Source: Candidatus Nitrosocosmicus agrestis (lineage in GTDB: Archaea > Thermoproteota > Nitrososphaeria > Nitrososphaerales > Nitrososphaeraceae). Taken from it: a stretch of DNA of 64,000 nucleotides. This document shows positions 5,752-44,103 of this stretch, in pieces. The stretch is from NCBI RefSeq assembly GCF_008389435.1, contig NZ_VUYS01000006.1, positions 1 to 64,000 on the forward strand. Direction: 5' to 3'. Each line of letters opens with the position of its first letter. The stretch's first letter is position 1. The translations under genes and the position numbers were made by a program. Under the pieces are notes generated by a model. The model made no database searches. It had not been told where the DNA came from and saw only the letters and a program-made list of their open reading frames with translations.

Positions 5752-5764
5752 AAAATATAAAGGA

Positions 5765-6844: not shown

Positions 6845-7052
6845 TTGGAGAATTCCTCCAACACTACAAATTCTTTTATTAATCCATAATCGCCCATTTC
6901 TATACTATCTGTGAAATAGTTCTTTATTTTAAAGTTTTATCATTCTGGTAGAAATGTAACTTGTTTTTCTGAAACGATTGACTAAAATCGCAAATATTAT
7001 CTAATCCAATAAACAATTATTAATAGATATTAACGTTCAATCTAATTATAAT

Positions 7053-8828
7053 ATGGTTAATAAGAATAAAACAGTACTTGTTACTGGCAGTGGTACAGGG
7101 ATTGGCCAAGCAGTAGCGAGAAGATTTGCTAAATCAGGATACAATATCATCATCCTAGGTAGAAGAAAGGAACCGTTAATTGAAGCATCAGATATTCTTA
7201 ACCAAATAATATCTCAATCCAAATTTGACACAAGAGTAAAATATTATCCAGGCGTGGATGTGTCAGATTTAAGTGGACTCATTAAAATGTATGACCAAAT
7301 TCAAAAGGAATTTGGAAAAATAGATGTTATAGTCAATAACGCTGGTGTCTCTGGACCAGTAAAAATTTTTACTAATTCAGAATTTAATGATTTTAAGGAT
7401 TGTGTATCTATTCATCTAGGAGGTACATTCTGGACAAGTATGAAAGGCCTCAATGTTTTGGAAGGATCAGGTAAGATCATTACAATTTCCACATTCTTTA
7501 CTGAGGAAAATAAATACGAACAGAGACCATATCGTTTTAGAACTCCGTATACAGCCGCACAAGGAGCTAAAAACAGGCTTGCTGAGTGCCTTGCGTGGGA
7601 ACTAGTAGAAAGAGGCATCCATTCGGTGGCCACAAATCCAGGTCCAGTACATTCGGATAGAATTTACAAAACAGTATATCCGAAGGCTGCAGCCGAATTT
7701 TTAAGAATTGGAGGTTTTCCAGGTCTAACTAATAAGCAAATTGAGGAAATCTCAACAGCATTATTGCCATTTTTAGGGGACGATGAACAAATTATTGAAA
7801 CAGAGACACAAAAGATTGCAGGGAAACTTCTACCAATTGAAGATTCTATGAATTCTTCTCAACTGCGAGATCTTTCTAAAGATCTTTTGAAGAAGATTCA
7901 AGAAATAGCCGAAAAAGTCCAGAACAACACCAAGAAGATGATAGTGGATAATGAATTTTTATCACAAGAGGATGTTGCCGAAATGGTCTTTAATTTGGCC
8001 GACGAAAAAATAGGAAAAATGTTAAATGGCAAGATAATTCCTAATGACAGAGTATTTTATCCAGTAAAACCAATAGTCGAAAGGAAGATTAACTTTGACT
8101 CATCTAGTAACCTTGCAAATAAAGTCATTTTATTGACTTCTACAACTACAGATATGTCAGAACTAGAAATGCTGAAAGAGTTGGCTTCCGAAATTGTCAA
8201 CGAAAAACCAAAGCAGTTGATCATATTAACAAACCAAAATGAAATTACTAAAGAATCAAATAACTTGTTTACTAATTTTCACCATCATTCAATAGATCTT
8301 GGAAGCGAAGATGCGGTTAAAAGAATATTTAACGTTATAGCTTCAAAATACGGCAGAATCGATTCAACAATCCATTTTACTGGAAGTTACGATTATGACC
8401 AGTCATTTTTGAAACTAAATCCAGCTCAATGGGACAAGTTGGTTCAAAATTACATTCTTATCCCACACTTGATCACAAGAGAATCAGTCCTCTCCATGGC
8501 TACAAGGGAGGCAATCGATGATCCTTCTTTATTCAAAGTTGCAACTGGTAACATTTTGATTGTAGGTCCTAATGCTCCTGAAGGCAAAAAAATATCTGGC
8601 CTTGTAAGAGCAAGGTCTGAGGTATTCAGGGGTGCACTTAGACCATATGTGACAACAGCTAATCAAGAATTACACGATGTTTTGAATTCAAAAATAAACT
8701 TGACCTTAATACTTCAAGGAAATACGAGCGGTGACTCACCCCAAAATTCAAAATTGAAGCGAACGTTAATTGAATTGTCATCCCAAAATAAGTCTCTAAA
8801 TAATTTAATTCATTATTTAGATGAATAA
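7053..8828 (+). CDS. Two-domain short-chain dehydrogenase resembling malonyl-CoA reductase N-half
   Basis: A 591-residue protein with two SDR-like domains. Domain 1 has the nucleotide motif TGSGTGIG (11-18), NNAG (95-98) and Ser146, but the catalytic YxxxK reads Y166-T-A-A-Q170, so the lysine is a glutamine. Residues 141-206 (ISTFF then PGPVHSDRI) run in step with the N-terminal half of Chloroflexus malonyl-CoA reductase, which reduces malonate semialdehyde to 3-hydroxypropionate. Domain 2 (from about 355) keeps Rossmann spacing but has lost the glycine motif. A role in the thaumarchaeal 3-hydroxypropionate/4-hydroxybutyrate cycle is conceivable but unproven. The gene has its own ATG and promoter region. 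Confidence 0.8.
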   Translation: MVNKNKTVLVTGSGTGIGQAVARRFAKSGYNIIILGRRKEPLIEASDILNQIISQSKFDTRVKYYPGVDVSDLSGLIKMYDQIQKEFGKIDVIVNNAGVSGPVKIFTNSEFNDFKDCVSIHLGGTFWTSMKGLNVLEGSGKIITISTFFTEENKYEQRPYRFRTPYTAAQGAKNRLAECLAWELVERGIHSVATNPGPVHSDRIYKTVYPKAAAEFLRIGGFPGLTNKQIEEISTALLPFLGDDEQIIETETQKIAGKLLPIEDSMNSSQLRDLSKDLLKKIQEIAEKVQNNTKKMIVDNEFLSQEDVAEMVFNLADEKIGKMLNGKIIPNDRVFYPVKPIVERKINFDSSSNLANKVILLTSTTTDMSELEMLKELASEIVNEKPKQLIILTNQNEITKESNNLFTNFHHHSIDLGSEDAVKRIFNVIASKYGRIDSTIHFTGSYDYDQSFLKLNPAQWDKLVQNYILIPHLITRESVLSMATREAIDDPSLFKVATGNILIVGPNAPEGKKISGLVRARSEVFRGALRPYVTTANQELHDVLNSKINLTLILQGNTSGDSPQNSKLKRTLIELSSQNKSLNNLIHYLDE

Positions 8829-8852
8829 TACTGCTCTATAATTAAATGGAAA

Positions 8853-9062
8853 TTAGTGATGATGTTCGGATTGATGCAAGTTATGTTTCTTTTCGTATGA
8901 CATTGTCCATACTCCAACTCCAATTGTGGCGGCGCCGATGGCCATTATTAGATAATCAACTATGAATATGGTAGCCCATACAGAATTAAACATACCAGCT
9001 ATAAAAAACAAGAGCCCAAGAATGAATACGGACAAACCCGCAATTATTTCCGAATTAATCAT
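8853..9062 (-). CDS. Small two-helix membrane protein with His-rich tail
   Basis: The sensible start is the ATG at 9062, giving 69 residues. The longer open frame to 9221 would run through the start of the divergent dph6 gene. Two hydrophobic helices (about 5-24 and 30-50) are followed by a cytosolic-looking tail MSYEKKHNLHQSEHHH. The histidine cluster could bind a metal ion, but nothing else identifies a function. The start lies 58 bases from the divergent dph6 start. Confidence 0.6.
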   Translation of the reverse strand: MINSEIIAGLSVFILGLLFFIAGMFNSVWATIFIVDYLIMAIGAATIGVGVWTMSYEKKHNLHQSEHHH

Positions 9063-9120
9063 TTTGTTAATTCCAAGGTGTTTTCTACTATAAATACTAT
9101 TAGATTTCCCTATCAGGTTG

Positions 9121-9831
9121 ATGTTTGACTTGAGATTTGCAGGTTTGTTCTCAGGAGGGAAAGATAGTGTAAGTTCGATTTTGAGATCTGTGAGACAGGG
9201 GCACGAATTGAGATGTGTCATAATAATTCATCCCAAAGATGATGAAAGTTTGTTGTATCACTATCCTAACCACCACATTTTAGCAAAAGTTGCAGGAGCT
9301 ATAGGAGTCCCTATTATTGAAATTAAATGTGAAAAAAATGATAAAGAATCAGAAGTTGATAACCTATACAACGGTATAAACCAAGCTATTAACCAGTTCC
9401 AGGTTAAAGGACTATGTCATGGATGTATTCATAGTGAGTTTCAAATGAATATTTTTAGGAAAGTAGTGGAAAAATTCAATTTGAAATTGCTATCACCTCT
9501 CTGGAAAATAGACACAGAAATTTATTATAATACTCTTTTTAAAGATAATTTTGAAATTATTTTAACTCGAGTTGCAGCGAATGGACTTGATAAAACATGG
9601 CTTGGAAAAACTATCACTCCCATTACGTTGAGGGATTTAAGAAATTTAAGTAACAAATTTGGATTTAATTTAGACTTTGAAGGCGGAGAAGCTGAAACTC
9701 TGGTAATGAGTTGTCCTTTATATAAGAAGAGGATAGTTACAAAAGCTTCAAAAAGTCAGTGGGATGGTATTAGGGGAATCTTTGAAATATCAGATGTTGA
9801 ATTAATAGAAATTAAGAGATCAAATGCTTGA
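9121..9831 (+). CDS. dph6: Diphthine--ammonia ligase (Dph6-type ATP pyrophosphatase)
   Basis: A 236-residue adenine-nucleotide alpha-hydrolase of the Dph6/MJ0570 type, catalysing the last amidation step of diphthamide on elongation factor 2. The PP-loop SGGKDS is at 11-16, a CHGC pair at 99-102 and the family-specific block FEGGEAETLV at 187-195. An ATG at 9121 is preferred to the TTG one codon earlier. The gene heads a plus-strand run with srp54, pus10 and a zincin, and its end overlaps the srp54 start by 8 bases, implying one transcript of translation-related genes. Confidence 0.88.
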   Translation: MFDLRFAGLFSGGKDSVSSILRSVRQGHELRCVIIIHPKDDESLLYHYPNHHILAKVAGAIGVPIIEIKCEKNDKESEVDNLYNGINQAINQFQVKGLCHGCIHSEFQMNIFRKVVEKFNLKLLSPLWKIDTEIYYNTLFKDNFEIILTRVAANGLDKTWLGKTITPITLRDLRNLSNKFGFNLDFEGGEAETLVMSCPLYKKRIVTKASKSQWDGIRGIFEISDVELIEIKRSNA

Positions 9832-11188
9832 CAGTTTAAAGGATAATCTTCGTGTAGCCCTAAAAAAAATAGTAGGTGCTTCAGACATCAATGAAGAGTT
9901 AATAAACGAATTATGCAAAGACTTGCAACGCGCTCTATTAGCTGCTGATGTAAATGTGAAGCTTGTTTTAGAAATTACGAATAATTTAAAGCGAAGATCC
10001 ATGTCGGAGTCCCCTCCAAAGGGTTTGTCAAAGAAAGATCATATTATAACTATCCTGTATGGCGAACTCTCCGCTCTTTTAGGTTACAGTGGAGAAGTTA
10101 TCAAAACTATAGACAGAAAGAAATCGGAAGATACCTTGATAAACTTTGATTCTGAAAAAAAGAACACAATACTAATGCTTGGAATACAAGGTAGTGGTAA
10201 AACTACAGTTGTTGCAAAACTTGCAAGATGGTTGTCCAAACGTGGGTATAGAGTAGGAGTAATAGGCGCCGATACTTGGAGGCCTGGAGCATTAACCCAA
10301 TTAAAAATGAATTGCAGTAAAATGAATGTCCAAGTTTATGGCGAAGAGGGGAATAAGAATGCGGTTGACATAGTACAAGATGGGTTAAAATTTTTTGACA
10401 GTCAACCTGTGGATATTATCATTATAGATACAGCAGGGAGACATAAAGCTGAGCAGGACCTGTTAAATGAAATGAAATCGATGTATTCAGTGGTTTCACC
10501 AGATCAAGTTTTTTTAGTAATTGACGGTACCATTGGTCAACAGGCTTATAATCAGGCTAAAATATTTCATGAAAATGCAAGAGTCAGTGGGATAATTATA
10601 ACTAAGTTAGACGGAACTGCGAAAGGCGGAGGTGCTATTGCCGCTTCTGCCGCGACAGGAGCAAAAGTTCTATTTATAGGAACTGGAGAGAGAGTAGACG
10701 ATTTGGAGCAATTTTCACCAACCAGTTTTGTTGGTAGGCTACTAGGGATGGGAGACATAAAAGCTCTCCTAGAAATGGCAAGAAATCTTGAAATACAATC
10801 TGACGAAAATCAGGCTAAACGTTTAATGAGTGGTAAAATGACAATCGAGGATTTTTACTCACAAATGGAAAATATGGGTAAAATGGGTTTCCGAAATGTT
10901 ATCGAAAATTTACCTGGGCTTTCAGGTGTTGTAAAAGACGATCATTTAGATGTGCTTCAGCAAAAGATGGAAAAATGGAGATTTATAATCCAGTCATTTA
11001 GTGTTGAGGAAAAGAAAAATCCAGACATAATTAATGAATCCAGAAGGAAAAGGATTGCAAGAGGTTCCGGAGTTATGGAACATGATGTTAAAGATTTGAT
11101 AAAGCAGTATAATAATTCCAAGACTATGATGAAACAAGCAAAAGGTCGCCAAATGCAAGGTCTTTTGAGAAGATTCGGATTAGGATAA
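9824..11188 (+). CDS. srp54: Signal recognition particle GTPase SRP54
   Basis: A 454-residue SRP54/Ffh protein that binds signal peptides and SRP RNA and delivers ribosomes to FtsY. The N domain covers about 1-90. The G domain has the P-loop GIQGSGKTT (120-128), the DTAGRHK block and the TKLDG motif. The methionine-rich M domain follows from about 310 and carries the RNA-binding SRRKRIARGSG. SRP19 is encoded separately at 23015. Length is normal. Confidence 0.97.
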   Translation: MLDSLKDNLRVALKKIVGASDINEELINELCKDLQRALLAADVNVKLVLEITNNLKRRSMSESPPKGLSKKDHIITILYGELSALLGYSGEVIKTIDRKKSEDTLINFDSEKKNTILMLGIQGSGKTTVVAKLARWLSKRGYRVGVIGADTWRPGALTQLKMNCSKMNVQVYGEEGNKNAVDIVQDGLKFFDSQPVDIIIIDTAGRHKAEQDLLNEMKSMYSVVSPDQVFLVIDGTIGQQAYNQAKIFHENARVSGIIITKLDGTAKGGGAIAASAATGAKVLFIGTGERVDDLEQFSPTSFVGRLLGMGDIKALLEMARNLEIQSDENQAKRLMSGKMTIEDFYSQMENMGKMGFRNVIENLPGLSGVVKDDHLDVLQQKMEKWRFIIQSFSVEEKKNPDIINESRRKRIARGSGVMEHDVKDLIKQYNNSKTMMKQAKGRQMQGLLRRFGLG

Positions 11189-11243
11189 ATAGTGAGACAC
11201 AAGGGAGGAAACGGCTTTAACACAGAGGGAAAATGTTCAAAGT

Positions 11244-12356
11244 ATTAAATTTAATTTATGCACTTCATGTTACCGAAGAAATTTCGATATAACTTGCAAA
11301 GAGCGAATTAAGTTTGGTGCGTCCATTATTGCTGTAAAAAGTAGTGATACCAAATGCTTTGTGTGTATGGATTTTTTTTTAAACACTTTCCCATCAATCA
11401 TATCAAAAGTTGCTAATGAGATCACAAACTTTGGAAATTACATCAAAACTATCGATATAGGTACAAAACTACCATACAAAATTATTGAAAATGAAGATTA
11501 CATTAGATCATTATTCCATATCAAAGGTAAATTGAGTATAAAAGGTCAAATTAATTGTGACATTAGGGATACTATTAGTTCTAACTTTGGAATTGATATA
11601 AACCATTCAGAACCTGACTGCAAATTTGAAATCACAATTGACAAGAATTTTCAATTTTCAATTGCGACTATTTTCAAAGAGCAGTTATTCCTAGGTAGAT
11701 ATAAAAAATTAAAAAGAGGAATATCTCAGAGATCACCCACTAATATTAAATATTCAAAGAATGAACAAACAAATGTTGAATGCAATTCTTGTGAAGATTC
11801 TGTTGAATTATTCATAAGAGAAATATTAGGTTCAGATTATGATGTAGAAAAAACCAAGATAATTTGGACGGGCAGCGAAGACAAAAACAGTCTTGTAATG
11901 GGAAATGGTCGACCATTTTTAATAAAGGTAAAAATGTGTCAGAATGTTGATACCAACAAGATATACCAAAAAAATGGAATGGAAATTTCGTTTGAAGATT
12001 TTCAATCAGACCTTACAAATAAATGGAAAACATATCGTCAAGTAGTCGACCTGCTAGTGCTAATTGAAGGTGTGATAGATGACAATATTGATTTGAACCA
12101 ATTCATAGCGAAATTTGTAGGTGAGGTTCGATTCAAGACGAACAATAGGCCAATAACCAAAAGAATTTACGATTCTAGGCTCATGGGTGTTAAGTCTTGC
12201 AACCAGTTTGAAATTCGTTTAGTTTTAGACAATGGGATACCTATAAAACAGCTAGTTGGAGGACAAACCCCTATTCAACCTAGTCTTACTCATCACCTCA
12301 ATGTCACATGCGAATGTATATATTTTGACATAGTTGATGTACTCCAAAGCAATTAG
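11244..12356 (+). CDS. pus10: tRNA pseudouridine synthase Pus10, start unusual
   Basis: Archaeal Pus10 makes pseudouridine 54/55 in the T-loop of tRNA. The first standard start in frame is GTG 11361, but the frame is open back to 11196 and encodes the family's N-terminal zinc pair, CTSC (bases 11259-11270) followed by CFVC just at the GTG. No ATG, GTG or TTG exists in that upstream part, so translation probably begins at a rare codon such as ATT 11244 (370 residues), or a sequence error hides the start. Downstream come a THUMP-like part, RYKKLKRG and the catalytic segment GSED followed by MGNGRPF; the usual Arg of GRED is Ser, the Asp is kept. The gene follows srp54 closely. Confidence 0.82.
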   Translation: MKFNLCTSCYRRNFDITCKERIKFGASIIAVKSSDTKCFVCMDFFLNTFPSIISKVANEITNFGNYIKTIDIGTKLPYKIIENEDYIRSLFHIKGKLSIKGQINCDIRDTISSNFGIDINHSEPDCKFEITIDKNFQFSIATIFKEQLFLGRYKKLKRGISQRSPTNIKYSKNEQTNVECNSCEDSVELFIREILGSDYDVEKTKIIWTGSEDKNSLVMGNGRPFLIKVKMCQNVDTNKIYQKNGMEISFEDFQSDLTNKWKTYRQVVDLLVLIEGVIDDNIDLNQFIAKFVGEVRFKTNNRPITKRIYDSRLMGVKSCNQFEIRLVLDNGIPIKQLVGGQTPIQPSLTHHLNVTCECIYFDIVDVLQSN

Positions 12357-12367
12357 AATAGATTGGC

Positions 12368-13054
12368 ATGAGAACTATACACCCATTAGCACTAATTTAC
12401 AAGTCATATACAGAAGGAATTTTAGATTCAAAAACCTATAAACAAATCATAAAGAGGGTAGAAATCGTTAATGACGCAGTGAATAGGATTGAATATGTGA
12501 CGACTGTCAAATTTCCTGATTTTATTATAGAGCCAAGCTTAATTATAGGTTCATCCGATGTCGAGTTTGGGCAACATGCGATCCTGTATGCAAGAACAAT
12601 ACCATATCCCACAGAGACAAACAAAATTAAAATAATAATCCAATTGTGTGCACCTTTGATCCTTTATGGACTAAAGGGAACCATTCATGCTGTCATGGCA
12701 CATGAATTTTTGCATTATTTAAATTTGGTAAAAAACATTTTGGAAATGAACATAAATTCAGATACAATTACTGTTACTTCATTTGAAACGTCATTTGTTG
12801 ATGATGAAAAGACATTAAATGCCAAAAGTGTCTATAAAGGCGACAGATCCTTAGTCAGGATGCTTGACTCAAAATTTGCTAATGGACTGAATGACACTAA
12901 ACTAGATACAAAAACTCAAAAGATGTGGATTAGCAAAAATAAATCAATCCAAAGTATTCAACTATCTAAAAACTACACAAAGCTACCCATTGAAGCTTTT
13001 TTTAATACAAAATTTGATGACCACTTAATCGCGATGGTACAAAAATGGAATTAA
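12368..13054 (+). CDS. Putative zinc metallopeptidase-like protein (HExxH)
   Basis: A 228-residue protein with HEFLH at 112-116 inside a predicted helix (IHAVMAHEFLHYLNLV), the signature of zincins. No clear third zinc ligand motif is visible and there is no signal peptide or membrane helix, so it would be cytosolic. It starts 12 bases after pus10 and probably shares its transcript. I do not recognise a named family. The SprT-like or minimal-zincin group is possible. Confidence 0.65.
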   Translation: MRTIHPLALIYKSYTEGILDSKTYKQIIKRVEIVNDAVNRIEYVTTVKFPDFIIEPSLIIGSSDVEFGQHAILYARTIPYPTETNKIKIIIQLCAPLILYGLKGTIHAVMAHEFLHYLNLVKNILEMNINSDTITVTSFETSFVDDEKTLNAKSVYKGDRSLVRMLDSKFANGLNDTKLDTKTQKMWISKNKSIQSIQLSKNYTKLPIEAFFNTKFDDHLIAMVQKWN

Positions 13055-13107
13055 AGACCCTGGTTATTGCAAATTCTATGATATTCACCAATTTATTTGA
13101 TTTACTA

Positions 13108-13305
13108 TCAAGATTTTGATTTTTTAGATTGATCCTTTTGAAATTCGGTATAACTGCATTTTCCGCACGTAAATCGATCTTTATGTTCTGCCATGAATAC
13201 ACCTTTCCCGCATCTGGGACATTCCCTTTTTTTTCTCTCAATTTTATCACCAGTAATATCATAAAATTTCGGAATAGTTAATTTTGATTTTGATTCTTTA
13301 CTCAT
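13108..13305 (-). CDS. rps27ae: Ribosomal protein eS31 (S27ae)
   Basis: A 65-residue small-subunit zinc-ribbon protein. The four cysteines are in [22 protein letters not shown], that is, CxxC, a 14-residue spacer and CxxC, and the ends are basic as in archaeal S27ae. It lies 24 bases after rps24e on the same strand, the normal archaeal pairing. Confidence 0.93.
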
Positions 13306-13329
13306 CTTGAATTAATCGACCTAGCTCTA

Positions 13330-13704
13330 TTATTTCTTTTTAGATTTTGCTTCTGCAGCAGCTGCCTGTTTTGCTTTTAATTTTGCTGCTTTTTCTTCAT
13401 CTATGATTTTTTTTCTATCCTCTTTAGACATTATTCTTAAGAACCTATACCTTGGTAGTTGCTTTTTAGCGTCTTCCAAATCATTATAATAATACATCAA
13501 TGCAAAAACATCTGGATTACCATACTCACTAGTTAAGGAGATAGGTAAAAGATTCTTACTGCTTATACCAAGCTTTGTTGCAAGTAGGTTTGCAGCTTCA
13601 TCTTTCTTAACCGAACCAACTGCATTTTTAATAATGGATTTTATCTCTCTTCGCTTAAGTAAAACATTGTTATTATCTTCCAACAGCACTACTTCTAAAC
13701 TCAA
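13330..13704 (-). CDS. rps24e: Ribosomal protein eS24
   Basis: A 124-residue protein with the eS24 layout: an N-terminal strand, the LLKRREI block (20-26), a central KDEAANLLATKLG helix and a Lys/Ala-rich C-terminal helix. Starts at TTG 13704, directly divergent from the phosphatase gene. It sits immediately upstream of rps27ae and is probably co-transcribed with it. Confidence 0.9.
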   Translation of the reverse strand: MSLEVVLLEDNNNVLLKRREIKSIIKNAVGSVKKDEAANLLATKLGISSKNLLPISLTSEYGNPDVFALMYYYNDLEDAKKQLPRYRFLRIMSKEDRKKIIDEEKAAKLKAKQAAAAEAKSKKK

Positions 13705-13791
13705 TCTATTCTATATCATATCAGAAATTAGTAAATATATTTATTGCGATACCTAGATTTTTATGCTACTTCTGTAATAATTTCAGTTCAT

Positions 13792-14484
13792 TTGAACAAA
13801 ATAAGGTGGCTTGCAATCGATATAGACGGAACTATAACAGTAAATGGCAACGGTATGGTAAACTTGGAGGCACTTTCTAAATTGCGTTTTTTGGTAAAAT
13901 TGGGTTATAAAGTTATCTATGTAACTGGGCGATCGTCCTTAGAAGCATTCTCATTGGCAGTTTTTGGTGGAACGACACAGATAGCTATTGGCGAAAATGG
14001 TGGTGTTATTTCCACCTCACCCATAAAACATGAAATCTTGGCAAGTAGAGAAAAATGTAAGAAAGGTCTACAAATACTTGAAAACCACTTGGAAAATGTA
14101 TCTGAGAAACCCGTGTTTCCCAGAATGAGTGAAATTGTATTAGAAAGGTCATTTGATATCAAAGATGCAAACCAACTATTTAGAGAAAAGGCACCTGAAT
14201 TAACAATTGTAGATAGTCAATATGCTTTTCACATAAATGAATCTAATATTAATAAAGGTACCGGCCTTGAACATCTTATGAAATCATTTAATATTAAATC
14301 TGACGGGATAGTTACAATTGGCGATAGTATAACAGATGTCCCAATGTTTAAAAAAACAGAATACAGCATTACATTTGAAAATTCTGAGTCGGATGTCCAA
14401 AACAACGCAACTTTTGTTGTCAAAGGTTCAAATGGTGAAGGATTGGTTAATGCAATCAATCTAATAGTGTGCAATAAAGTTTAA
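13792..14484 (+). CDS. pgp: Phosphoglycolate phosphatase-type HAD hydrolase
   Basis: A HAD-superfamily phosphatase of the archaeal PGP type with a C2B cap, 230 residues from the TTG at 13792. The nucleophile motif is DIDGT (10-14), and motif IV is GDSITDVPMF in the C-terminal part. An earlier TTG at 13744 is in frame, but a promoter-like AAATATAT at about 13732-13739 lies directly before it, so 13792 is the more credible start. The gene is 12 bases upstream of argS and probably in one unit with it. Confidence 0.82.
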   Translation: MNKIRWLAIDIDGTITVNGNGMVNLEALSKLRFLVKLGYKVIYVTGRSSLEAFSLAVFGGTTQIAIGENGGVISTSPIKHEILASREKCKKGLQILENHLENVSEKPVFPRMSEIVLERSFDIKDANQLFREKAPELTIVDSQYAFHINESNINKGTGLEHLMKSFNIKSDGIVTIGDSITDVPMFKKTEYSITFENSESDVQNNATFVVKGSNGEGLVNAINLIVCNKV

Positions 14485-14496
14485 TGGTAATTTCAG

Positions 14497-16485
14497 TTGA
14501 TTATCGAAAATATTATCCAAGAAATTAATATTATATTAAAAGATGTGCTAAGTTACTACGATCAAGAAGTTATAGCAACACCTTATGACATATCAGAACC
14601 TCCCGTAAGAGAATTCGGTGATTATTCAACCAATATTGCATTCGTGCTTTCAAAATTATTAAAGAAGTCACCTATGCAAATAGCTAATGAAATTACCCAA
14701 GAGATACTCCCCTCGACTCAGAGTTGGGGAACTAAAAAATATTTACAGAGTTCGTCAACTCAGCCACCTGGCTTCATCAACTTCTTTTTGAAAAAAGATA
14801 TCATAATGAAGGAATTTATGAAAAAAGTTAATGCGATCGAAGAAATCATAAAATATGAATCAAATGATGAACCTGATACTATAATAATAGAACATACTAG
14901 TGTAAATCCTAATAAAGCGCTTCATGTAGGACATGTCAGAAACGCCATCATTGGAGATTGTTTGTTCAGAATATTTAAAAAAGTGGGAAAAAATGTTAAA
15001 GTATTAAATTACGTCGATGATTCTGGCCTTCAAGTTGCCGATATCATAGTAGGTTTAAAATATGCAGGCATCCCGATGCCAGACTCGAATCAAAGTGGCT
15101 CATCTGATCTCACAAAATTCGATCAATATTGCGGCAACGAAGTATATGTTAAAATCAATGAAATGTATAGCAGTAAACCTGATCTTCTGGAAAGAAGAAA
15201 AGATATTCTTAAAGATCTTGAAGACCCTGAATCCGAGGTTTCAAAATATACACATGATATTGTTATGAAAGTTTTAGCAGGACAATTACAAACTAGTTGG
15301 AACCTAAAATGTAGATATGACTTGATAAATTTTGAGTCTCAAATAGTACAATCAAATCTTTGGAGATCTACCTTTGAAACACTCAAGGAAAAAGGTATCA
15401 TTTTTTATGAAGAAAGCGGTGCAAACAAAGGTTGTTGGGTCTATAAATCTAGTTCGATTGGAGACAAAGTTTTGGTGAGAAGCGATTCTACAATCACTTA
15501 CTTTGCGAAAGATATTCCATATGCAATATGGAAGCTTGGTTACTTGAACAACCCCTTTGATTTTAGATTTTATTCGTCTCAGTGGGATACCACAAACCTT
15601 TATGCAACCGTCTTGAAAGACAAAAAAACACGTCAAGGTTTTAATATTTCAAACCAATCTGATTCGCAGTTAATCGACTTTAATAGAATTAAGAAAGTGA
15701 TAACAATAATTGATTCACGACAAGAGAGACTTCAAGCGCTCTTAAGTGAAATATTAATGAGAATAGGAATCCCAATTGACAAGTATGAATATCTGGGTTA
15801 TGAACCGGTAATTTTGAGCAAAGGGTCATTAGACATGCTAGGGATCCAACAAGAAAAACCTAATTCTGCTCATATGTCAGGAAGGAAAGGCATTTTCATC
15901 GAAGCCGATCGTGCTTTGTCAATACTTGAGCAAGAATCTCTGGATGAGACCGTGAAAAGAAATCCTGAAATTACACAAGCAGAAGCCAAACACATAGCTT
16001 CCGCAATAGCAGTCTCAGCAATAAGATATTTTTTCATAAAATTTGATTTAGGAAAGATGATAACGTTTGATATCAACGATTCTCTCAGTTTAGATGGAGA
16101 TACGGCACCATATATTCAGTATGCTTACGCACGCGGGAAAAAGGTTGAAGAAAAAGTCAGCAAGTCAAATATTGCAAGTCAAGATATGGAACCAGATATT
16201 GAATACAGGTTTGAATTTACAAGTATTGAAATCGAACTCATTTGGCATATTTGTAAGTACACGATTATTTTAGGTCAAGCTACTGATAAGTCAAACCCCA
16301 AATTAATAGCAAAATATCTATTTCAACTGGCAACGCTTTTTAACAATTTCTACGATAAATCACCTATTCTTAGCGAAAAGAATCAAAATGTCGCAAGGAG
16401 TAGGGTGATCCTTTTGCGAGCTGCCTTGTTAGTAATGAAAGAGTGTATGTATTTGATTGGAATTTCTGCGATACCTAAGATGTAA
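14497..16485 (+). CDS. argS: Arginyl-tRNA synthetase
   Basis: A 662-residue class I synthetase. The N-terminal additional domain is followed by the HIGH-type motif HVGH in ALHVGHVRNAI (about 147-150). The KMSKS-type loop is degenerate (MSGRKG), as is usual for many ArgRS. The C-terminal half is the helical anticodon-binding domain. TTG start. It follows the phosphatase gene by 12 bases. Confidence 0.95.
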   Translation: MIIENIIQEINIILKDVLSYYDQEVIATPYDISEPPVREFGDYSTNIAFVLSKLLKKSPMQIANEITQEILPSTQSWGTKKYLQSSSTQPPGFINFFLKKDIIMKEFMKKVNAIEEIIKYESNDEPDTIIIEHTSVNPNKALHVGHVRNAIIGDCLFRIFKKVGKNVKVLNYVDDSGLQVADIIVGLKYAGIPMPDSNQSGSSDLTKFDQYCGNEVYVKINEMYSSKPDLLERRKDILKDLEDPESEVSKYTHDIVMKVLAGQLQTSWNLKCRYDLINFESQIVQSNLWRSTFETLKEKGIIFYEESGANKGCWVYKSSSIGDKVLVRSDSTITYFAKDIPYAIWKLGYLNNPFDFRFYSSQWDTTNLYATVLKDKKTRQGFNISNQSDSQLIDFNRIKKVITIIDSRQERLQALLSEILMRIGIPIDKYEYLGYEPVILSKGSLDMLGIQQEKPNSAHMSGRKGIFIEADRALSILEQESLDETVKRNPEITQAEAKHIASAIAVSAIRYFFIKFDLGKMITFDINDSLSLDGDTAPYIQYAYARGKKVEEKVSKSNIASQDMEPDIEYRFEFTSIEIELIWHICKYTIILGQATDKSNPKLIAKYLFQLATLFNNFYDKSPILSEKNQNVARSRVILLRAALLVMKECMYLIGISAIPKM

Positions 16486-32405: not shown

Positions 32406-33068
32406 ATGTCATTCAGCAATAAATGGATCAAACCACAAAATGAAATTAGTAACGTAGGGATGAAGCTTCTAGAAAATATAAAACCACCTTCGCCGCTTAA
32501 ACCACGTATAGAGGAAGCACAAAAGCGCCTCCACTCACAGATCTCAAAATTAGAAACTATGTCAGCAAAAATGGATGAAAAAGATCAGATTATATTTAAA
32601 CGCATAATTAGTGCTATGCAGAATCATGATAGCCAATACGCCAAAATTCTTTCAAATGAACTTTCTCAAATACGTAAGATGAACAAAATGATAACTTCCG
32701 CTAAATTGGCATTGGAACAAATTCAACTCAGATTAAATACTATCACTGAATTAGGAGATGTAGTAGTAACGTTGAGTCCTGCGATGTCTGTTATAAAGAA
32801 TATTCAGGGCGGCCTAAATTCAATGATACCTGAAGCAGGGCAATCTTTTGGAAAGATAACAGATATTCTAAATGGCATCATGAACGATTCTGGACAAATT
32901 CCCACTGCTTCTGAAATTAATGGTAATACAGGCAGTGTAAGTGAAGATGCATTGAAAATAATCGAGGAAGCAAGTGCTATAGTGGAACAAAATATGAAAG
33001 ATAAATTTCCAGACTTGCCTAATTCTAGTTTAGACAACAAGTTGTCCGAAAGCAGTTCTCTCTATTAA
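32406..33068 (+). CDS. cdvB: ESCRT-III homologue CdvB (Snf7 family)
   Basis: A 220-residue, mainly helical Snf7-domain protein. Thaumarchaea divide with the Cdv (ESCRT) machinery, in which CdvB-type proteins form membrane-constricting filaments. The core helices run from PRIEEAQKRLHSQISKLETM to about 150, followed by a linker and a C-terminal acidic helix (SVSEDALKIIEEASAIVEQNM) resembling an autoinhibitory or MIM helix. It is separate from any cdvA or cdvC in this window and may be one of several paralogues. Confidence 0.88.
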   Translation: MSFSNKWIKPQNEISNVGMKLLENIKPPSPLKPRIEEAQKRLHSQISKLETMSAKMDEKDQIIFKRIISAMQNHDSQYAKILSNELSQIRKMNKMITSAKLALEQIQLRLNTITELGDVVVTLSPAMSVIKNIQGGLNSMIPEAGQSFGKITDILNGIMNDSGQIPTASEINGNTGSVSEDALKIIEEASAIVEQNMKDKFPDLPNSSLDNKLSESSSLY

Positions 33069-33076
33069 TTTATTTT

Positions 33077-33406
33077 TTATTTGGGTCCTGTCATTGATAT
33101 TTTTTTTAGTTCAACTTTTATTCGATAAATGGTTGGGTAACTATATCCTTTTTCCCTAAATTTCTTAACCATTACCTTCCAACTTTTAAGTCGCATAATC
33201 GCTTGCTTCTTAGTCAAAAATGAAGTCTCAGATTTTACTAGGCTTTTTCTTCCCGAATTAAGGTAACCCCCTACATCGGCAACATATCTATTATAGGAAA
33301 ATCTTAAACCAGAAATAACAAATTCTACCGGCAATGTATCTACGTATTTCTTAATTTCAAGATACTGGGGCTTTGATGCATTTATTTCAATACTGTATTT
33401 TCTCAT
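33077..33406 (-). CDS. Hypothetical basic protein
   Basis: 109 residues from ATG 33406 (a TTG at 33421 is also in frame but lies inside the palindrome). Basic, rich in Lys, Tyr and Ser, with a pattern of short strands and the helix KKQAIMRLKSWKVMVKKFREKG. It could bind nucleic acid. I do not recognise the family. The region upstream of it holds the left 28-bp palindrome and a TATATT-like box. Confidence 0.5.
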   Translation of the reverse strand: MRKYSIEINASKPQYLEIKKYVDTLPVEFVISGLRFSYNRYVADVGGYLNSGRKSLVKSETSFLTKKQAIMRLKSWKVMVKKFREKGYSYPTIYRIKVELKKISMTGPK

Positions 33407-33420
33407 ACCATAGTCCCTCA

Positions 33421-33448
33421 ATATTTCAAAACTCGAGTTTTGAAATAT
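33421..33448. repeat. Left 28-bp perfect palindrome flanking the biotin region
   Basis: Arms ATATTTCAAAACTC and GAGTTTTGAAATAT are exact reverse complements (14 + 14, no spacer). The outer 8 bases and the centre match the right copy at 38437; two positions per arm differ, with the complementary change in the other arm. It lies 14 bases past the stop of the minus-strand gene at 33463. Confidence 0.9.
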
Positions 33449-33462
33449 AATAGTTTTTCATT

Positions 33463-34026
33463 CTAAAAAACCTTAAAATGAAAGCCATTTAACTTATCAA
33501 CAAATGCTGCCGCATCATGCATTATTCTTGAAAATTGTAATTCATCATTTCTCTCAAATTTAGTTGATTTTGAAATGCAATAGTTTTTTATTTGTCCAGA
33601 AACATTTACAGGCAAATAAGATATTACCCAAATATTATGATGTATTGGTTGTAGTGCTTTCAAAGAACTGACTATACTTTGTACATCAGAAGATTCAGAG
33701 TCAATAAATTGGATTAATAGGACTTGTTCAGAATTCCTTTTAATGTTCCTGAAATTAGGAATTATTACACTTATTTCGATTTCGCCAATTTTGATCTTTC
33801 GCTGAGATGGTAACATCATTGTAGTAAGCAAATAATGCGTCAAGGATTCAGCTAGTGCAAGTTGATCAGTAGTGCTGATTAGCCCGCTCTCATTAATTAT
33901 AGTGCATTTATCCATCAATTCATCTATCAAGGCAATAGAGTTTTCACGAGACTCGCTTAATTTTTTATGAATTCGACTAATCCCCATTTGATTTATCTCA
34001 GCATAGAGCAATTCCTTAACATCCAT
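33463..34026 (-). CDS. Hypothetical protein beside bioA
   Basis: A 187-residue soluble alpha/beta protein: an N-terminal helical part (MDVKELLYAEINQMG to about 85), then strands such as IKIGEIEISVIIP and VLLIQFIDSES. No known motif is recognised. It is divergent from bioA with 92 bases between the starts, and its 3' end faces the left palindrome. Confidence 0.55.
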   Translation of the reverse strand: MDVKELLYAEINQMGISRIHKKLSESRENSIALIDELMDKCTIINESGLISTTDQLALAESLTHYLLTTMMLPSQRKIKIGEIEISVIIPNFRNIKRNSEQVLLIQFIDSESSDVQSIVSSLKALQPIHHNIWVISYLPVNVSGQIKNYCISKSTKFERNDELQFSRIMHDAAAFVDKLNGFHFKVF

Positions 34027-35444: not shown

Positions 35445-36047
35445 TTATCCAGACGTCGCAATATTTCTTAAATTCTTGTAGAGGGTTGCCTTGGACATCC
35501 CCATATCTTTAGCAATTTTTGTTTTAGATTTATTTTGGGAAAGGAGAGAAATTAAGTGTACGCTATCTACAATCTTCCTAGGTCTTCCCACATGCTTACC
35601 TATAGATTTAGCACGTATTATCCCATCCTTTGTCCTTTGTATTAATAACTCTCTCTCACGTTCTGCCACCCAAGTCAATATACCTAGCATAAGCTTGCGA
35701 ATGCTAGGATCGGTAGTCTGAAGAAATGTTTCCCTAGGGGAGCAAGAGATAAGTGGAGCATATTGTTCTACTGCTTTTATAGCTTCGAGGGTATCCCAAA
35801 AAGTACGTCCTATCCTGGACAATTCATAAACTAAAATGGCATCAATTTTTTCATTCGCAATCAGATTCAAGAGATCTTTAAACCCCTTTCTAGAATTAGC
35901 GGCAATTTTACCGCTAATGGAGGCATCTTCAAAGTATTCAATTATCTGAAAATCATGATTCGTGGCCCACCTTTGAATCGAAATTTTTTGATTCATGACA
36001 GTTTGGTCTTCTGTACTTACCCTAAGATAGGCGAATGCATATTTCAT
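35445..36047 (-). CDS. Serine recombinase (resolvase/invertase family)
   Basis: A 200-residue small serine recombinase from ATG 36047. The catalytic serine is Ser11 in YLRVSTEDQ. The active-site arginines lie near YELSRIGRTFWDTLEAI and WVAERERELLIQRTKDG. After a GRPRK linker comes a C-terminal DNA-binding HTH, KTKIAKDMGMSKATLYKNL, as in Hin, Gin and TnpR. All catalytic parts look intact. It sits in antisense between bioA and bioB. No transposase or TnpB-like gene accompanies it. The frame is open 21 codons further upstream, but that part does not resemble the family. Confidence 0.93.
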   Translation of the reverse strand: MKYAFAYLRVSTEDQTVMNQKISIQRWATNHDFQIIEYFEDASISGKIAANSRKGFKDLLNLIANEKIDAILVYELSRIGRTFWDTLEAIKAVEQYAPLISCSPRETFLQTTDPSIRKLMLGILTWVAERERELLIQRTKDGIIRAKSIGKHVGRPRKIVDSVHLISLLSQNKSKTKIAKDMGMSKATLYKNLRNIATSG

Positions 36048-36292
36048 AAAACGAGATTTGACAACAATCGTATAAAAAAGGTTGTTAAATAATATCCCAT
36101 TTATTGTCAAATTATCTATATTATTTTTCCAAATTAATAGTCAAAAAAAGGTAGTAATTATTGGTCTGTCTAAATAACGGTCGTTTTTTAAACGGTATGG
36201 TTTTTTTGAGTGGTTAACGATTTTCGTCTACTAACTTTCGCTTATAAAAGACTAATATAACAGAGCAATAATTAATAGAAAAGTAAGATTAA
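36048..36292 (+). promoter_or_regulatory. Control region between recombinase and bioB
   Basis: A 245-base non-coding region serving both the recombinase (minus) and bioB (plus). TTATAAAAG at 36242-36250 is the best bioB TATA box. Upstream, AACGGT occurs at 36176 and again at 36191, with a related TAACGA at 36215, and AACG-GT-CGTT forms a small dyad at 36176-36185. These could be operator sites; nothing identifies the regulator. Confidence 0.45.
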
Positions 36293-37273
36293 TTGCGCAA
36301 TTTGAAAAGTGATTTTATTTATAGGTTGAAGGATAAAGTAATAGAAGGAAATAAAATTACATCCGAAGAAGCACTCAAGTTAATATCCACAAAAGATATA
36401 AACGTATTAGCAGAATGCGCGAATAAAATAACGACAACATTTTCAGGAGATAGCGTTGACGTTGAAACTTTAATTAATGCAAAATCAGGGCGATGTCCGG
36501 AAGATTGTTCGTTTTGTGCTCAATCTTCATTCAATTCTACCCCTATTGACAAATATCCACTGTTATCGCATGATAAAATTTTTGAACAAGCCGAAAGAGC
36601 CTTACAAAGCGGTGCAAACAGTTTTTGCATTGTATGTGCTTACAAGGCACCACCGGAAGATGATTTTGAACATATATGCGAATCAATTAAAATTATCCGT
36701 AGCAAGCTCAAAATTGATGTAAATGTTTCATTGGGATTTATGACACTAGAAAGAGCAAAGCGATTAAAGAGTTTGGGAGTAAAAAGGTATAACCATAATC
36801 TTGAAACTTCAAAAAGCTTTTTTAATAAAATTTGCACTACTCACTCTTACGAGGATAGAATCAATACTGCAAAAATAGTAAAGGAAGCAGGTTTGGAACT
36901 TTGCAGTGGTGGCATAATAGGAATGGGCGAAACCAAGGAACAGCGAGTTGAACTAGGTGTTGCCTTATCAGAATTACAACCTGACGAGGTCCCTGTTAAT
37001 ATGTTACTAGGTAGAGAAGGGACCCCTCATTATAACAATAATTTCATATCGGAAAAGGAAATTATTCAGACAATAGGTACATTTAGGTTCTTAATGCCAA
37101 AGACCATACTCAAGATTGCTGGTGGAAGAGAAGTGCATCTTAAGGGCGACGATAAGAAAGTACTTAGAGCTGGTGCAAACGGAATAATTACAGGAGGTTA
37201 CTTAACAACTGAAGGAAATAAACCTAGTGATGATTTCAAAATGCTAAAAGAGATTGGTATTAAGCAAAGATAA
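36293..37273 (+). CDS. bioB: Biotin synthase
   Basis: A 326-residue radical SAM enzyme inserting sulfur into dethiobiotin. The cluster motif CPEDCSFC gives C68, C72 and C75. The block YNHNLETSKSFF and the C-terminal AGGREVHLKGDDKK are typical. TTG start. Its end overlaps the bioF start by 20 bases, so translation of the two is probably coupled. Confidence 0.95.
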   Translation: MRNLKSDFIYRLKDKVIEGNKITSEEALKLISTKDINVLAECANKITTTFSGDSVDVETLINAKSGRCPEDCSFCAQSSFNSTPIDKYPLLSHDKIFEQAERALQSGANSFCIVCAYKAPPEDDFEHICESIKIIRSKLKIDVNVSLGFMTLERAKRLKSLGVKRYNHNLETSKSFFNKICTTHSYEDRINTAKIVKEAGLELCSGGIIGMGETKEQRVELGVALSELQPDEVPVNMLLGREGTPHYNNNFISEKEIIQTIGTFRFLMPKTILKIAGGREVHLKGDDKKVLRAGANGIITGGYLTTEGNKPSDDFKMLKEIGIKQR

Positions 37274-38435
37274 CTTAAATTTTTTCGAGTCAAATCTTAA
37301 AGATCTGAAACGTCTTAATTTATATCGGTACCTTAGAATTCAAAACGAATTTAGAGACACTAATTCGAGCGAAGATAACCTTCCATTTATTAATTTTTCC
37401 ACAAATGATTATTTGGGTCTGTCCAAGCATGAAAATCTCTTGAATCTGTTTAGTTCGTCACATTTTTCAAGTGTTTCTCAATGTAGTTCACGCCTTATCA
37501 GTGGAAACACTCCTCTTTTTGAAAAATTAGAAGAAATTCTTTCCCATCATAGACATACTGAGTCGGCTTTAATCTATCCCACCGGATATATGGCAAATAT
37601 CGGGACAATAAGTTGTATTGCAAATAATCAAACCACAATCTTTAGTGACGAGTTTAACCACGCGAGCATAATAGATGCTTGCCGTTTGTCCAGAGCTAAA
37701 ATCGAAGTGTTTTTACATAACGACATGTTTGATTTGGAAAATAAAATCAAAAAAAATGATGCAAAGCGTAAGGTAATTGTTACTGAAGGTATTTTTAGCA
37801 TGAATGGAGATATGGCAAGACTGGATGTTATGTCTGAATTGTCATCTAAGTATGGGTGTATTCTTGTAGTTGACGATGCCCACGGTGATTTTGTGATAGG
37901 AGATAAATCACAAACAGATTATGGAGGAACTGCAAGTTATTTCAAAGTTGAAAATGAAGTGGACGTTCATATTAGTAGTTTGAGTAAAGGTCTAGGTTGT
38001 TTTGGCGGCTATGTAGCTTGTTCAGATCTTTTACGAAATTATCTGATAAATAAATCCAGGGCATTTATTTTTACCTCGGCACTCCCCGACATTTTTTGTG
38101 AATTGGCTTACAAAGCTGTATTGTTGGCCAATATGGGCGATAGGCAGAAAAAGCTACATAAAAATTTAAAATATTTTGAAGAACAATCAAAAAATTACAC
38201 TTTGCCAGGCTTGAGATTTACTGAGGACAGTCCAATTATTCCCCTCGTTTTGGGGTCAGAAGAGAAATCCTTATCGATTTCAGATTCATTGTTAAAAAAA
38301 GGATATTTTGTACAACCCATTAGATATCCCACAGTGAAACGAAATGAAGCCCAATTAAGGATATCCATTTCTGCAATACATACATCTAAGCAAATATCAG
38401 GATTATTATCAACCTTAGATTCTCTGTTGAAATAA
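37254..38435 (+). CDS. bioF: 8-amino-7-oxononanoate synthase
   Basis: A 393-residue PLP enzyme joining pimeloyl thioester and alanine. Markers are NFSTNDYLGLSKH, DEFNHASIIDACRLSRAK, VDDAHGDFVIG, and the PLP lysine in SSLSKGLGCFGGYVAC. TTG start within the end of bioB. One base after its stop begins the right palindrome. No bioD or pimelate-forming gene is visible nearby. Confidence 0.92.
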   Translation: MVLSKDNLNFFESNLKDLKRLNLYRYLRIQNEFRDTNSSEDNLPFINFSTNDYLGLSKHENLLNLFSSSHFSSVSQCSSRLISGNTPLFEKLEEILSHHRHTESALIYPTGYMANIGTISCIANNQTTIFSDEFNHASIIDACRLSRAKIEVFLHNDMFDLENKIKKNDAKRKVIVTEGIFSMNGDMARLDVMSELSSKYGCILVVDDAHGDFVIGDKSQTDYGGTASYFKVENEVDVHISSLSKGLGCFGGYVACSDLLRNYLINKSRAFIFTSALPDIFCELAYKAVLLANMGDRQKKLHKNLKYFEEQSKNYTLPGLRFTEDSPIIPLVLGSEEKSLSISDSLLKKGYFVQPIRYPTVKRNEAQLRISISAIHTSKQISGLLSTLDSLLK

Positions 38436-38436
38436 A

Positions 38437-38464
38437 ATATTTCAGAATTCGAATTCTGAAATAT
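38437..38464. repeat. Right 28-bp perfect palindrome after bioF
   Basis: Arms ATATTTCAGAATTC and GAATTCTGAAATAT are exact reverse complements. It is the same length as the copy at 33421 and differs from it only by two base-pair-preserving changes per arm. It begins one base after the bioF stop. It may act as a recombination site, operator or 3' RNA hairpin. Confidence 0.9.
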
Positions 38465-38741
38465 CTTTTATCCTTAAATATTTCATATTTATTTCCCAAT
38501 ATAACTATTATTGTAGTAATATAACTATTATTGTAGTAATATAACTATTATTGTAGTAATATAACTATTATTGTAGTAATATAACTATTATTGTAGTAAT
38601 ATAACTATTATTGTAGTAATATAACTATTATTGTAGTATAAAAAAAATAAGACATTTATTAATTAAGTTCTGTGCTTAGGTAACTATTTCGTATAAAATC
38701 TGAGTAAAAAATATATCCTTAGATGGCTTAGATCAAATGTT
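38465..38741. other. Intergenic region between bioF and the nucleotidyltransferase operon
   Basis: Apart from the tandem array, this stretch is extremely A/T-rich and holds no coding frame. After the array, AAAAAATAAG and ATATATCCTTAG (about 38709-38720) could be promoter elements of the operon starting at TTG 38742. Confidence 0.5.
38501..38640. repeat. Seven tandem copies of a 20-bp repeat
   Basis: ATAACTATTATTGTAGTAAT is repeated seven times head to tail with no spacer; only the last two bases of the last copy differ (TA for AT). Each unit contains a small dyad ACTA-N6-TAGT. The period is close to two helical turns, so bound proteins would sit on one face of the DNA. No spacers, so not a CRISPR. 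Confidence 0.95.
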
Positions 38742-42471: not shown

Positions 42472-43014
42472 TCAAGATCTAGAATATATATATACCCCAT
42501 CAAGGAATACTCGAGAATCCTTGTTCTTTATTTTAGTGGATGATTCAATATTGGCAGCAGTTTGGGAAACACTTTCAATATTGGGACCAGTTACCAAAAT
42601 ATCTTCACCTTGGACAACCACTTTTGTATCGCGTCCGATTATTCTAGAAACACGTGAAGAACGTTCTCCAAAAAAGTTTTCAATATGAATCTCTTGACCC
42701 TTTATCTTGACAGAAATCGGAAAGTGAGCGAAAACAATTTTAAGTTTATATGTAAATCCAGTGGTAGATCCGAGAATCATATTATTGATTACACTTCTCA
42801 AGGTATTGGCTAAAGCATAGTCTCTTTTGCGATTACCATATGATCTTATAGTAATTTTTTGATCTGCTACTTCGATCGTAGCAGGCATTTTGGTGAAATC
42901 TTTTTGCACAGAACCATTTTTTCCTTTGGCTGTAATAGTATTATGGTTCTTAGTAACAGTTACGCCATCGGGTATACTAATCTCATTAATGTAGAAGTCA
43001 GGTTTAGTAGACAT
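42472..43014 (-). CDS. rpl6: Ribosomal protein uL6
   Basis: A 180-residue large-subunit protein; last gene of the ribosomal operon in this window. Typical are IPDGVTVTKNHNTITAKGKNG at the N-terminus and the second-domain FFGERSSRVSRI. It overlaps rps8 by 11 bases. No uL18, uS5, uL30 or uL15 follows; the next gene is tRNA-Asn. Confidence 0.95.
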   Translation of the reverse strand: MSTKPDFYINEISIPDGVTVTKNHNTITAKGKNGSVQKDFTKMPATIEVADQKITIRSYGNRKRDYALANTLRSVINNMILGSTTGFTYKLKIVFAHFPISVKIKGQEIHIENFFGERSSRVSRIIGRDTKVVVQGEDILVTGPNIESVSQTAANIESSTKIKNKDSRVFLDGVYIYSRS

Positions 43015-43396
43015 ATCCGATTAAAGAACCTCCTAATCCCTTCTCTTGTGCTTCATGATGTGTCATTATACCGTTACTTGTAGAAACAATTAGTATTCCC
43101 ATATTGTATGAAGGCAAGAACTGTCTTTCCCAATTTAGGTATTGATCCTTTTTAACGCTAAAGCGTGGGGTAATTATACCACACTTGTTAATCTTAGCCA
43201 ATAGCTGGATCCTAAATTTACCCAGTCTTCCGTCATCTACTTGCTCAAATTCTCCGATGTATCTATGCTTTTGCATTACTCTAAGTACTTCGCTAGAAAA
43301 TTTTGAAGAAGGTAAGACAATGCATTCTCTTTTTCTCCTCATCTCATTATTGTATAGCGTAGTAAATAAATTTGACAAAATGTTTAATGCGGGCAT
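43004..43396 (-). CDS. rps8: Ribosomal protein uS8
   Basis: A 130-residue small-subunit protein with LNILSNLFTTLYNNEMRRKREC at the N-terminus and ILIVSTSNGIMTHHEAQEKGLGGSLIGYVY at the end. ATG 43396 is preferred because GGTGAT lies just before it as a ribosome binding site; the alternative GTG is inside that site. Confidence 0.95.
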   Translation of the reverse strand: MPALNILSNLFTTLYNNEMRRKRECIVLPSSKFSSEVLRVMQKHRYIGEFEQVDDGRLGKFRIQLLAKINKCGIITPRFSVKKDQYLNWERQFLPSYNMGILIVSTSNGIMTHHEAQEKGLGGSLIGYVY

Positions 43397-43405
43397 CCAA
43401 ATCAC

Positions 43406-43588
43406 CTATTCATATTTCCTAAAACCTAATGTGAATGCAACTTCCCTAAAACATCTTCTACACAGCATCAAATCATATGAACAAATCATACCACTAAATG
43501 AACCACACCTTTTGCACCATCTTGTCCCTTTACCATGAGCCAGTTTTTTCCTACCCGTCAATGCATAATCGCGAATCTTGACCTTCAA
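43406..43588 (-). CDS. rps14: Ribosomal protein uS14
   Basis: A 60-residue zinc-type S14 with WCKRCGSFSGMICSYDLMLCRRCFRE; the four cysteines of the zinc site are CxxC and CxxC. TTG start that overlaps the rpl5 stop (TTGA). Confidence 0.95.
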   Translation of the reverse strand: MKVKIRDYALTGRKKLAHGKGTRWCKRCGSFSGMICSYDLMLCRRCFREVAFTLGFRKYE

Positions 43589-44103
43589 ACTATTTCGACT
43601 CCAAATTGTGATCTAAAAAACTCTATTGATTCATTCTTGGTGATCTTGTGGTCTTTTCCGATTTTGCTTGGATTCCTCTTATGAGAGATGCGGTATCCAG
43701 GTCTAGTCAATGCAGCACAAACATCCATACCAAAAATCCCTATATCTGGATTATATTTTGTACCGGGAATATCAATGTGCTCACGAATTCCAAATGAAAT
43801 ATTTCCATTAGTATCAAAAGATGAACTTTTAATCACATTCTTTTTTGATTCCAATATTCGCCTTAAAAAGTTTACTGCATCGGTTCTTCGTAGCGTTACC
43901 ATGGCACCGATTGGTTCTCCCTTATGAATGCCGAAATCCCTTACACTTTTCTTAGCACCTCTCACACTTGGCTTTTTCCCTGTTAATTCTGATAGGGCAT
44001 TCTTTGCTTTTTCTACTGGGTCTCCAGATTTTCCAACTCCAATGTTAATAACCACTTTGTCGACTTTAATTTGCTTCATAGAGTTTGACGGGCTTTCACT
44101 CAT
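43585..44103 (-). CDS. rpl5: Ribosomal protein uL5
   Basis: A 172-residue 5S-rRNA-binding protein; VVINIGVGKSGDPVEKA and GAMVTLRRTDAVNFLRRIL are typical. Its ATG lies 8 bases inside the end of rps4e. Confidence 0.95.
   Translation of the reverse strand: MSESPSNSMKQIKVDKVVINIGVGKSGDPVEKAKNALSELTGKKPSVRGAKKSVRDFGIHKGEPIGAMVTLRRTDAVNFLRRILESKKNVIKSSSFDTNGNISFGIREHIDIPGTKYNPDIGIFGMDVCAALTRPGYRISHKRNPSKIGKDHKITKNESIEFFRSQFGVEIV

Follow-up and report, generated by a model that had tools for sequence, protein, structure and literature searches.

The dif site of the Xer/XerA system, known from bacteria, Thermococcales and Sulfolobales, is a 28-bp element of the replication-terminus region in which two inverted 11-bp arms enclose a 6-bp centre, and it is present in one copy (two are known in S. 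solfataricus). In E. coli, the palindromic matS sites of the terminus region are bound by dimeric MatP and linked to cell division; they are spread over hundreds of kb. Dif-like sites also bound the cargo of the dif modules of Acinetobacter plasmids (pdif), in which order and orientation vary. Short palindromes in a few clustered copies are found in the SegB sites of Sulfolobus, which adjoin segAB, and in bacterial parS, which lies near the origin.

Thaumarchaea have been reported to lack xerA, an absence noted since 2010, which bears on how they resolve chromosome dimers and organize their termini (PMC2958812). The group concerned comprises major organisms of the nitrogen cycle that divide with ESCRT-III proteins. 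Here we describe a 28-bp symmetric site that is conserved across all families of ammonia-oxidising archaea (AOA) sampled and lies opposite their orc1/cdc6 gene. We consider it, with a probability of roughly 0.6, to be a cis-acting duplex-DNA site of the terminus region that serves terminus maintenance, that is, segregation or chromosome-dimer resolution.

Two perfect palindromes bound a biotin segment

The window, by which we mean the whole stretch of 64,000 nucleotides that was analysed, holds two matching 28-bp palindromes about 5 kb apart that flank a biotin segment, an arrangement shared by its genus. Both are present exactly as the earlier note had described them, and both are perfect. 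The features of the locus are as follows.

32406-33068, + strand: CdvB1/B2-type ESCRT-III cell-division protein, a cdvB paralogue (PDB 9s97, E 1.9e-35; NF041005, E 4.7e-50, under the curated cut-off)
33080-33406, - strand: 109-aa basic orphan protein (hyp114), all-helical in its model
33421-33448, no strand: site 1, perfect 28-bp palindrome ATATTTCAAAACTCGAGTTTTGAAATAT
33463-34026, - strand: uncharacterised protein of 187 aa, inside the site-bounded segment
34119-35444, + strand: bioA-like class-III aminotransferase, cargo between the sites
35445-36110, - strand: lone small serine recombinase, Mpi-invertase-like, between bioA and bioB
36039-36066, no strand: possible decayed site with one good half, ATATTTCAT, 3 core mismatches and 6 of 14 positions symmetric
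36293-37273, + strand: bioB, cargo between the sites
37254-38435, + strand: bioF-like class I/II aminotransferase, cargo between the sites
38437-38464, no strand: site 2, perfect 28-bp palindrome ATATTTCAGAATTCGAATTCTGAAATAT
42472-44103, - strand: ribosomal genes L6-S8-L5, forming the right-hand flank of the terminus locus and reading toward the sites (names given from the sequence by eye)

Site 1 is upstream of the orphan gene, whose start (33406) is 14 bp away; on the other side of the site, the stop codon of the minus-strand ORF at 33463-34026 ends at a distance of 14 bases. Site 2 starts one base past the bioF stop codon (38435). The closeness of both copies to a stop codon had been read correctly. 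So had the position of site 1 next to the gene at 33406, and a site stands just upstream of this gene in many Nitrososphaeraceae, but the sites as a class are not bound to one gene. The two copies differ at only two positions of each arm, position 9 (A/G) and position 12 (C/T), and at both of these the opposite arm carries the complementary change. At the composition of the window, about 9e-4 perfect 28-bp palindromes are expected per 64 kb by chance, and none arose in 60 simulated windows. A pattern search of the whole 3.2-Mb genome for the outer arms separated by 12 arbitrary bases returned exactly two matches, both in the window, and the reversed pattern returned zero.

The stretch at 36039-36066 occupies the same place upstream of bioB at which genera g5 and g6 carry a site, and may be a decayed copy, although chance is also compatible with what is seen there. 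Adjoining site 2 is a perfect 20-bp tandem array of 7.1 copies of AATATAACTATTATTGTAGT (38498-38638); a 20-bp array of another sequence, with 5.4 copies, is found next to the equivalent site of genome G011 (L007 1370-1477).

The site is widespread in AOA and conserved in its half-sites

Allowing up to three mismatches, the consensus ATATTTCAAAATTCGAATTTTGAAATAT was found in 43 of the 70 genomes of the window's own family, and the control gave 0. Among 400 genomes sampled from the class, 245 carry the core pattern TTKCNNAAYTCGARTTNNGMAA; its matches are confined to the AOA families f1, f2, f3 and f5, with none in the class's other sampled families, and the reversed pattern matched 2 genomes. 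Exact matches number one to four per genome, usually two to four, and all fall at one locus. Every complete genome checked that carries the site has two to five copies at one spot. The sites of a genome are clustered within a few kb up to about 20 kb. The exact core TTTCTAAATTCGAATTTAGAAA is present in at least 120 stretches of GTDB r220; among the 80 listed, all but one are from AOA, and the genera represented there include Nitrosopumilus, Nitrosarchaeum, Nitrosotalea, Nitrosotenuis and Nitrososphaera. The exception, a 3-kb contig with two sites in a Phycisphaerae MAG (VGXN01000120.1; L377 838-865 and 1256-1283), is probably mis-binned. The stretches examined from GC-rich members (L276, L277, L279, L281 and L284-L286; GC 0.53-0.70 in these stretches) yielded neither the consensus site nor a different palindrome that recurs, and the same members carry the orphan protein according to a profile search; this weighs against the role in terminus maintenance considered below. 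The site is lineage-specific, highly conserved and undescribed in the literature searched, which covered few subscription journals; a search there for the site sequence itself gave no match.

A set of 449 distinct sites defines the half-site ATRTTTCWAAAYTC, with the consensus A T A/G T T T C T/A A A A T/C T C, in which T2, T4-C7, A10-A11 and T13-C14 are near invariant. What is conserved is therefore the sequence of two half-sites and not their pairing alone. Perfect palindromes make up 95 of the 449. When half-sites were shuffled within each locus, arm symmetry exceeded chance only at position 12 (z 4.1) and, to a slight degree, at position 6 (z 2.9), and was at chance level at positions 8 and 9; the compensated pair of the window is thus true but unrepresentative. 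The earlier note had argued from this pair to selection for two-fold symmetry. The conclusion draws strong support from the conservation of the site in all AOA families sampled and from its sharp half-site consensus, whereas the argument from compensated change is weak, holding for the window pair and not in general. Random asymmetric variation in relatives, named in that note as the observation that would speak against such selection, comes close to what is found, as the arms vary largely independently across the 449 sites.

Close pairs of sites show preferred spacings of about 60, 66-72 and 80-82 bp, which are lineage-specific and hence include few independent cases. A 10.5-bp helical phasing of these pairs (60, 70, 81) was considered and set aside, because there are only about four independent spacings and neighbouring periods are supported similarly.

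The sites lie opposite the orc1/cdc6 gene

The main feature of the locus, its position opposite the replication origin, was beyond the view of a reading of the window's letters. In 19 of 19 complete genomes, representing nine genera, the distance from the site to the best-scoring orc1/cdc6 gene is 0.397-0.486 of the circle. With one genome per genus and uniform positions assumed, such antipodal placement has a P of about 7e-7, although the constant position could in part be inherited gene order, for which the synteny control comprises 11 gene pairs only. Of the genes sampled, a modest majority (301 of 538, p 0.007) point the way a fork would travel from cdc6 to the sites. The position of cdc6 thus argues well, if not directly, that the locus is the replication terminus.

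The flanks of the locus are constant. Its landmarks in f1, f3 and part of f2 are, on one side, the gene of a CdvB-type ESCRT-III protein with the 109-aa orphan gene and, on the other, the ribosomal L6-S8-L5 genes; in Nitrososphaeraceae the CdvB1/B2-type gene forms the left flank. The remaining f2 genomes have the ribosomal cluster the other way round, with the sites still at its L6 end; in either orientation the operon is transcribed toward the sites. The genes between these landmarks vary, and in f2 and f3 the sites occupy the same chromosomal place among non-biotin genes, many of these sites in convergent gaps. At locus L064 (genome G025), an extended block of genes (~5156-16001) that have no homologues in the loci compared stands beside a site upstream of bioB and looks like DNA inserted at the terminus; a further site of this locus (12530) lies within a called gene.

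A proposed role in terminus maintenance and its alternatives

In the mechanism that we propose for terminus maintenance, a dimeric protein would bind each site with one subunit per 14-bp half, and the bound sites would act together. The resulting complex would serve the last steps of the chromosome cycle, either by holding sister termini together, in segregation, or in the resolution of dimers by recombination, and may work next to Cdv-based cell division. We give roughly equal weight to binding alone and to recombination at the sites; multiple copies within a few kb are unusual for a dimer-resolution site. A more specific form of the proposal, and a speculative one, is that this multicopy, fully symmetric terminus site is recombined or bridged by a non-Xer protein system that is coupled to ESCRT-III (Cdv) division, replaces Xer/dif and shuffles the cargo of the terminus. 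A defined 28-bp site at the inferred terminus offers both a bait for its protein and a handle on segregation.

It is possible, if doubtful, that the palindromes are active crossover sites at which a site-specific recombinase, as an unrecognised substitute for Xer, resolves dimers and, since the sites are symmetric, also inverts segments in the manner of the Acinetobacter plasmid dif modules. This reading overlaps with our preferred one, of which it is the recombination branch. The 11-6-11 layout and the terminus location both match dif, and dif-bounded modules are known elsewhere. The bioB-bioF segment has opposite orientations in genera g5/g6 and in g12, and in either state sites stand at its two ends, so recombination is possible. 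Gaps that hold sites have also been rearranged more often than other gaps (53% vs 33% in f1, 30% vs 12% in f2), but these counts are not phylogenetically independent, and terminus regions are often rearranged anyway, so that breakpoints prove no mechanism. The search for an enzyme also tells against crossover: tyrosine recombinases of PF00589 are present, but none is orthologous across ten genomes, although a very divergent enzyme could escape such a comparison, and the serine recombinase of the window is absent outside its own family. A XerA-like partner was rejected after a tree of 24 AOA tyrosine recombinases yielded no clade with one member per genome.

An operator for a local transcription regulator, acting on the biotin genes or in autoregulation of the orphan protein, is an unlikely role for the site. 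Dimeric regulators typically bind two-fold symmetric sites whose half-sites are sharp. In Nitrososphaeraceae the orphan gene is often directly preceded by a site, and in some genera bioB or bioA has one upstream. A biotin operator, whether of the BirA type or another, was suspected since both window copies flank bio genes, and would be expected at the promoters of such genes; it was abandoned because the f2 and f3 sites stand among other genes. In those families, sites at the corresponding position of the chromosome have no biotin genes nearby and are at least 10 kb from the orphan gene. The gaps themselves also disfavour promoters: 117 of the 121 sites with annotated surroundings fall between genes, 30 of these 117 (26%) in convergent gaps, and divergent gaps are not preferred (in f1 they hold 19% of the sites but 39% of the intergenic bases). 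Nor does an operator give any reason for placement opposite the origin.

Improbable, too, is a link of the locus to the origin, as a parS-like element or origin recognition box, with the orc1/cdc6 gene at the terminus instead. A distance of half a chromosome is compatible with either end, and the fork-oriented GC skew, examined in two genomes, has in G091 the sign opposite to that expected for a terminus at the sites, though it is not significant there. In G002, however, GC skew agrees with a terminus, as do the pooled gene orientation and the direction of the ribosomal operon. A single origin has been mapped in N. maritimus (PMC4010727). That the archaeal origins characterised to date depend on an adjacent initiator gene (PMC4010727) also speaks against this exchange of ends.

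We regard it as very improbable that the palindromes, as ends of an invertible or mobile biotin segment, are acted on by the lone serine recombinase from the bioA-bioB interval. Its gene does lie between the two window sites, its product resembles the Mpi DNA invertase, and the crossover site of resolvases is 28 bp in size too; yet with the same query that retrieved the enzyme in 60 of 70 genomes of its own family, it was found in none of 31 genomes outside the family, many of which have sites, and it was therefore discarded as a general partner of the site. The protein keeps catalytic-looking residues (by eye).

An RNA hairpin at 3' ends, as a terminator or stability element, which the earlier note had taken for the main competing reading, can hardly be the function of the site: both window copies fold as 12-bp hairpins (z -3.9 to -5.3) after stop codons, as any perfect palindrome is expected to fold, but asymmetric arms are common, the arms lack general covariation and are independent at positions 8 and 9, sequence is conserved beyond pairing, and the sites use all gap types, standing upstream of genes as well as between tandem and convergent ones. 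The largely independent arms and the quarter of sites between convergent genes disfavour the hairpin and the promoter operator alike.

The orphan protein is a candidate for the site's binder

Terminus maintenance as proposed above calls for a dimeric binding protein, and guilt by association weakly supports the product of the orphan gene as a candidate. The protein is basic, helical (model pLDDT 91.5) and encoded in a single copy. It is present in 250 of the 400 genomes, in the same four families as the site; shared ancestry confounds this co-occurrence, as does linkage in genomes that are incomplete. In f1 and f3 most loci have its gene next to a site, and in several f2 genomes the two are about 11 kb apart. 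In one good genome (G062) sites are present and the protein was not found; the GC-rich genomes show the converse, the protein with no consensus site in the stretches examined. By E-value, the protein has no convincing relative in Pfam, NCBIfam, PHROG or PDB sequences, and none in phages. Foldseek returned no match with an E below 4.7, and the fold may still be a known one. The idea that it is a stand-alone core-binding domain of a tyrosine recombinase was dropped, as it rested on a weak structural match to the Tn1549 integrase (6emy, Z 2.9), with none from Foldseek or profile comparison.

Relation to known systems

Like SegB sites and parS, the AOA sites are short palindromes in a few clustered copies; the former adjoin segAB or lie near the origin, whereas the AOA sites, assuming that the origin adjoins orc1/cdc6, are opposite it. 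They share with the pdif modules a variable cargo bounded by sites, but are chromosomal, symmetric and at one fixed locus, with no Xer proteins known and no mobility between replicons seen. The matS sites are shorter than the 28 bp of the AOA site and dispersed where the AOA sites are clustered, and no MatP-like protein was identified.

Closest in form is dif. The AOA site can be read in the same 11-6-11 division, as ATATTTCTAAA TTCGAA TTTAGAAATAT, although its symmetry runs through the spacer, so that this division is a reading unmarked by the sequence. It differs from dif in that spacer and arms are both symmetric and several copies lie within a few kb; no xerA is reported in Thaumarchaea, and no shared tyrosine recombinase was found in ten genomes. 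Because it is multicopy and without an identified recombinase, we do not class it as dif. The two sites are nonetheless alike in their length of 28 bp and in their location in the replication-terminus region, where both keep their place while gene order changes.
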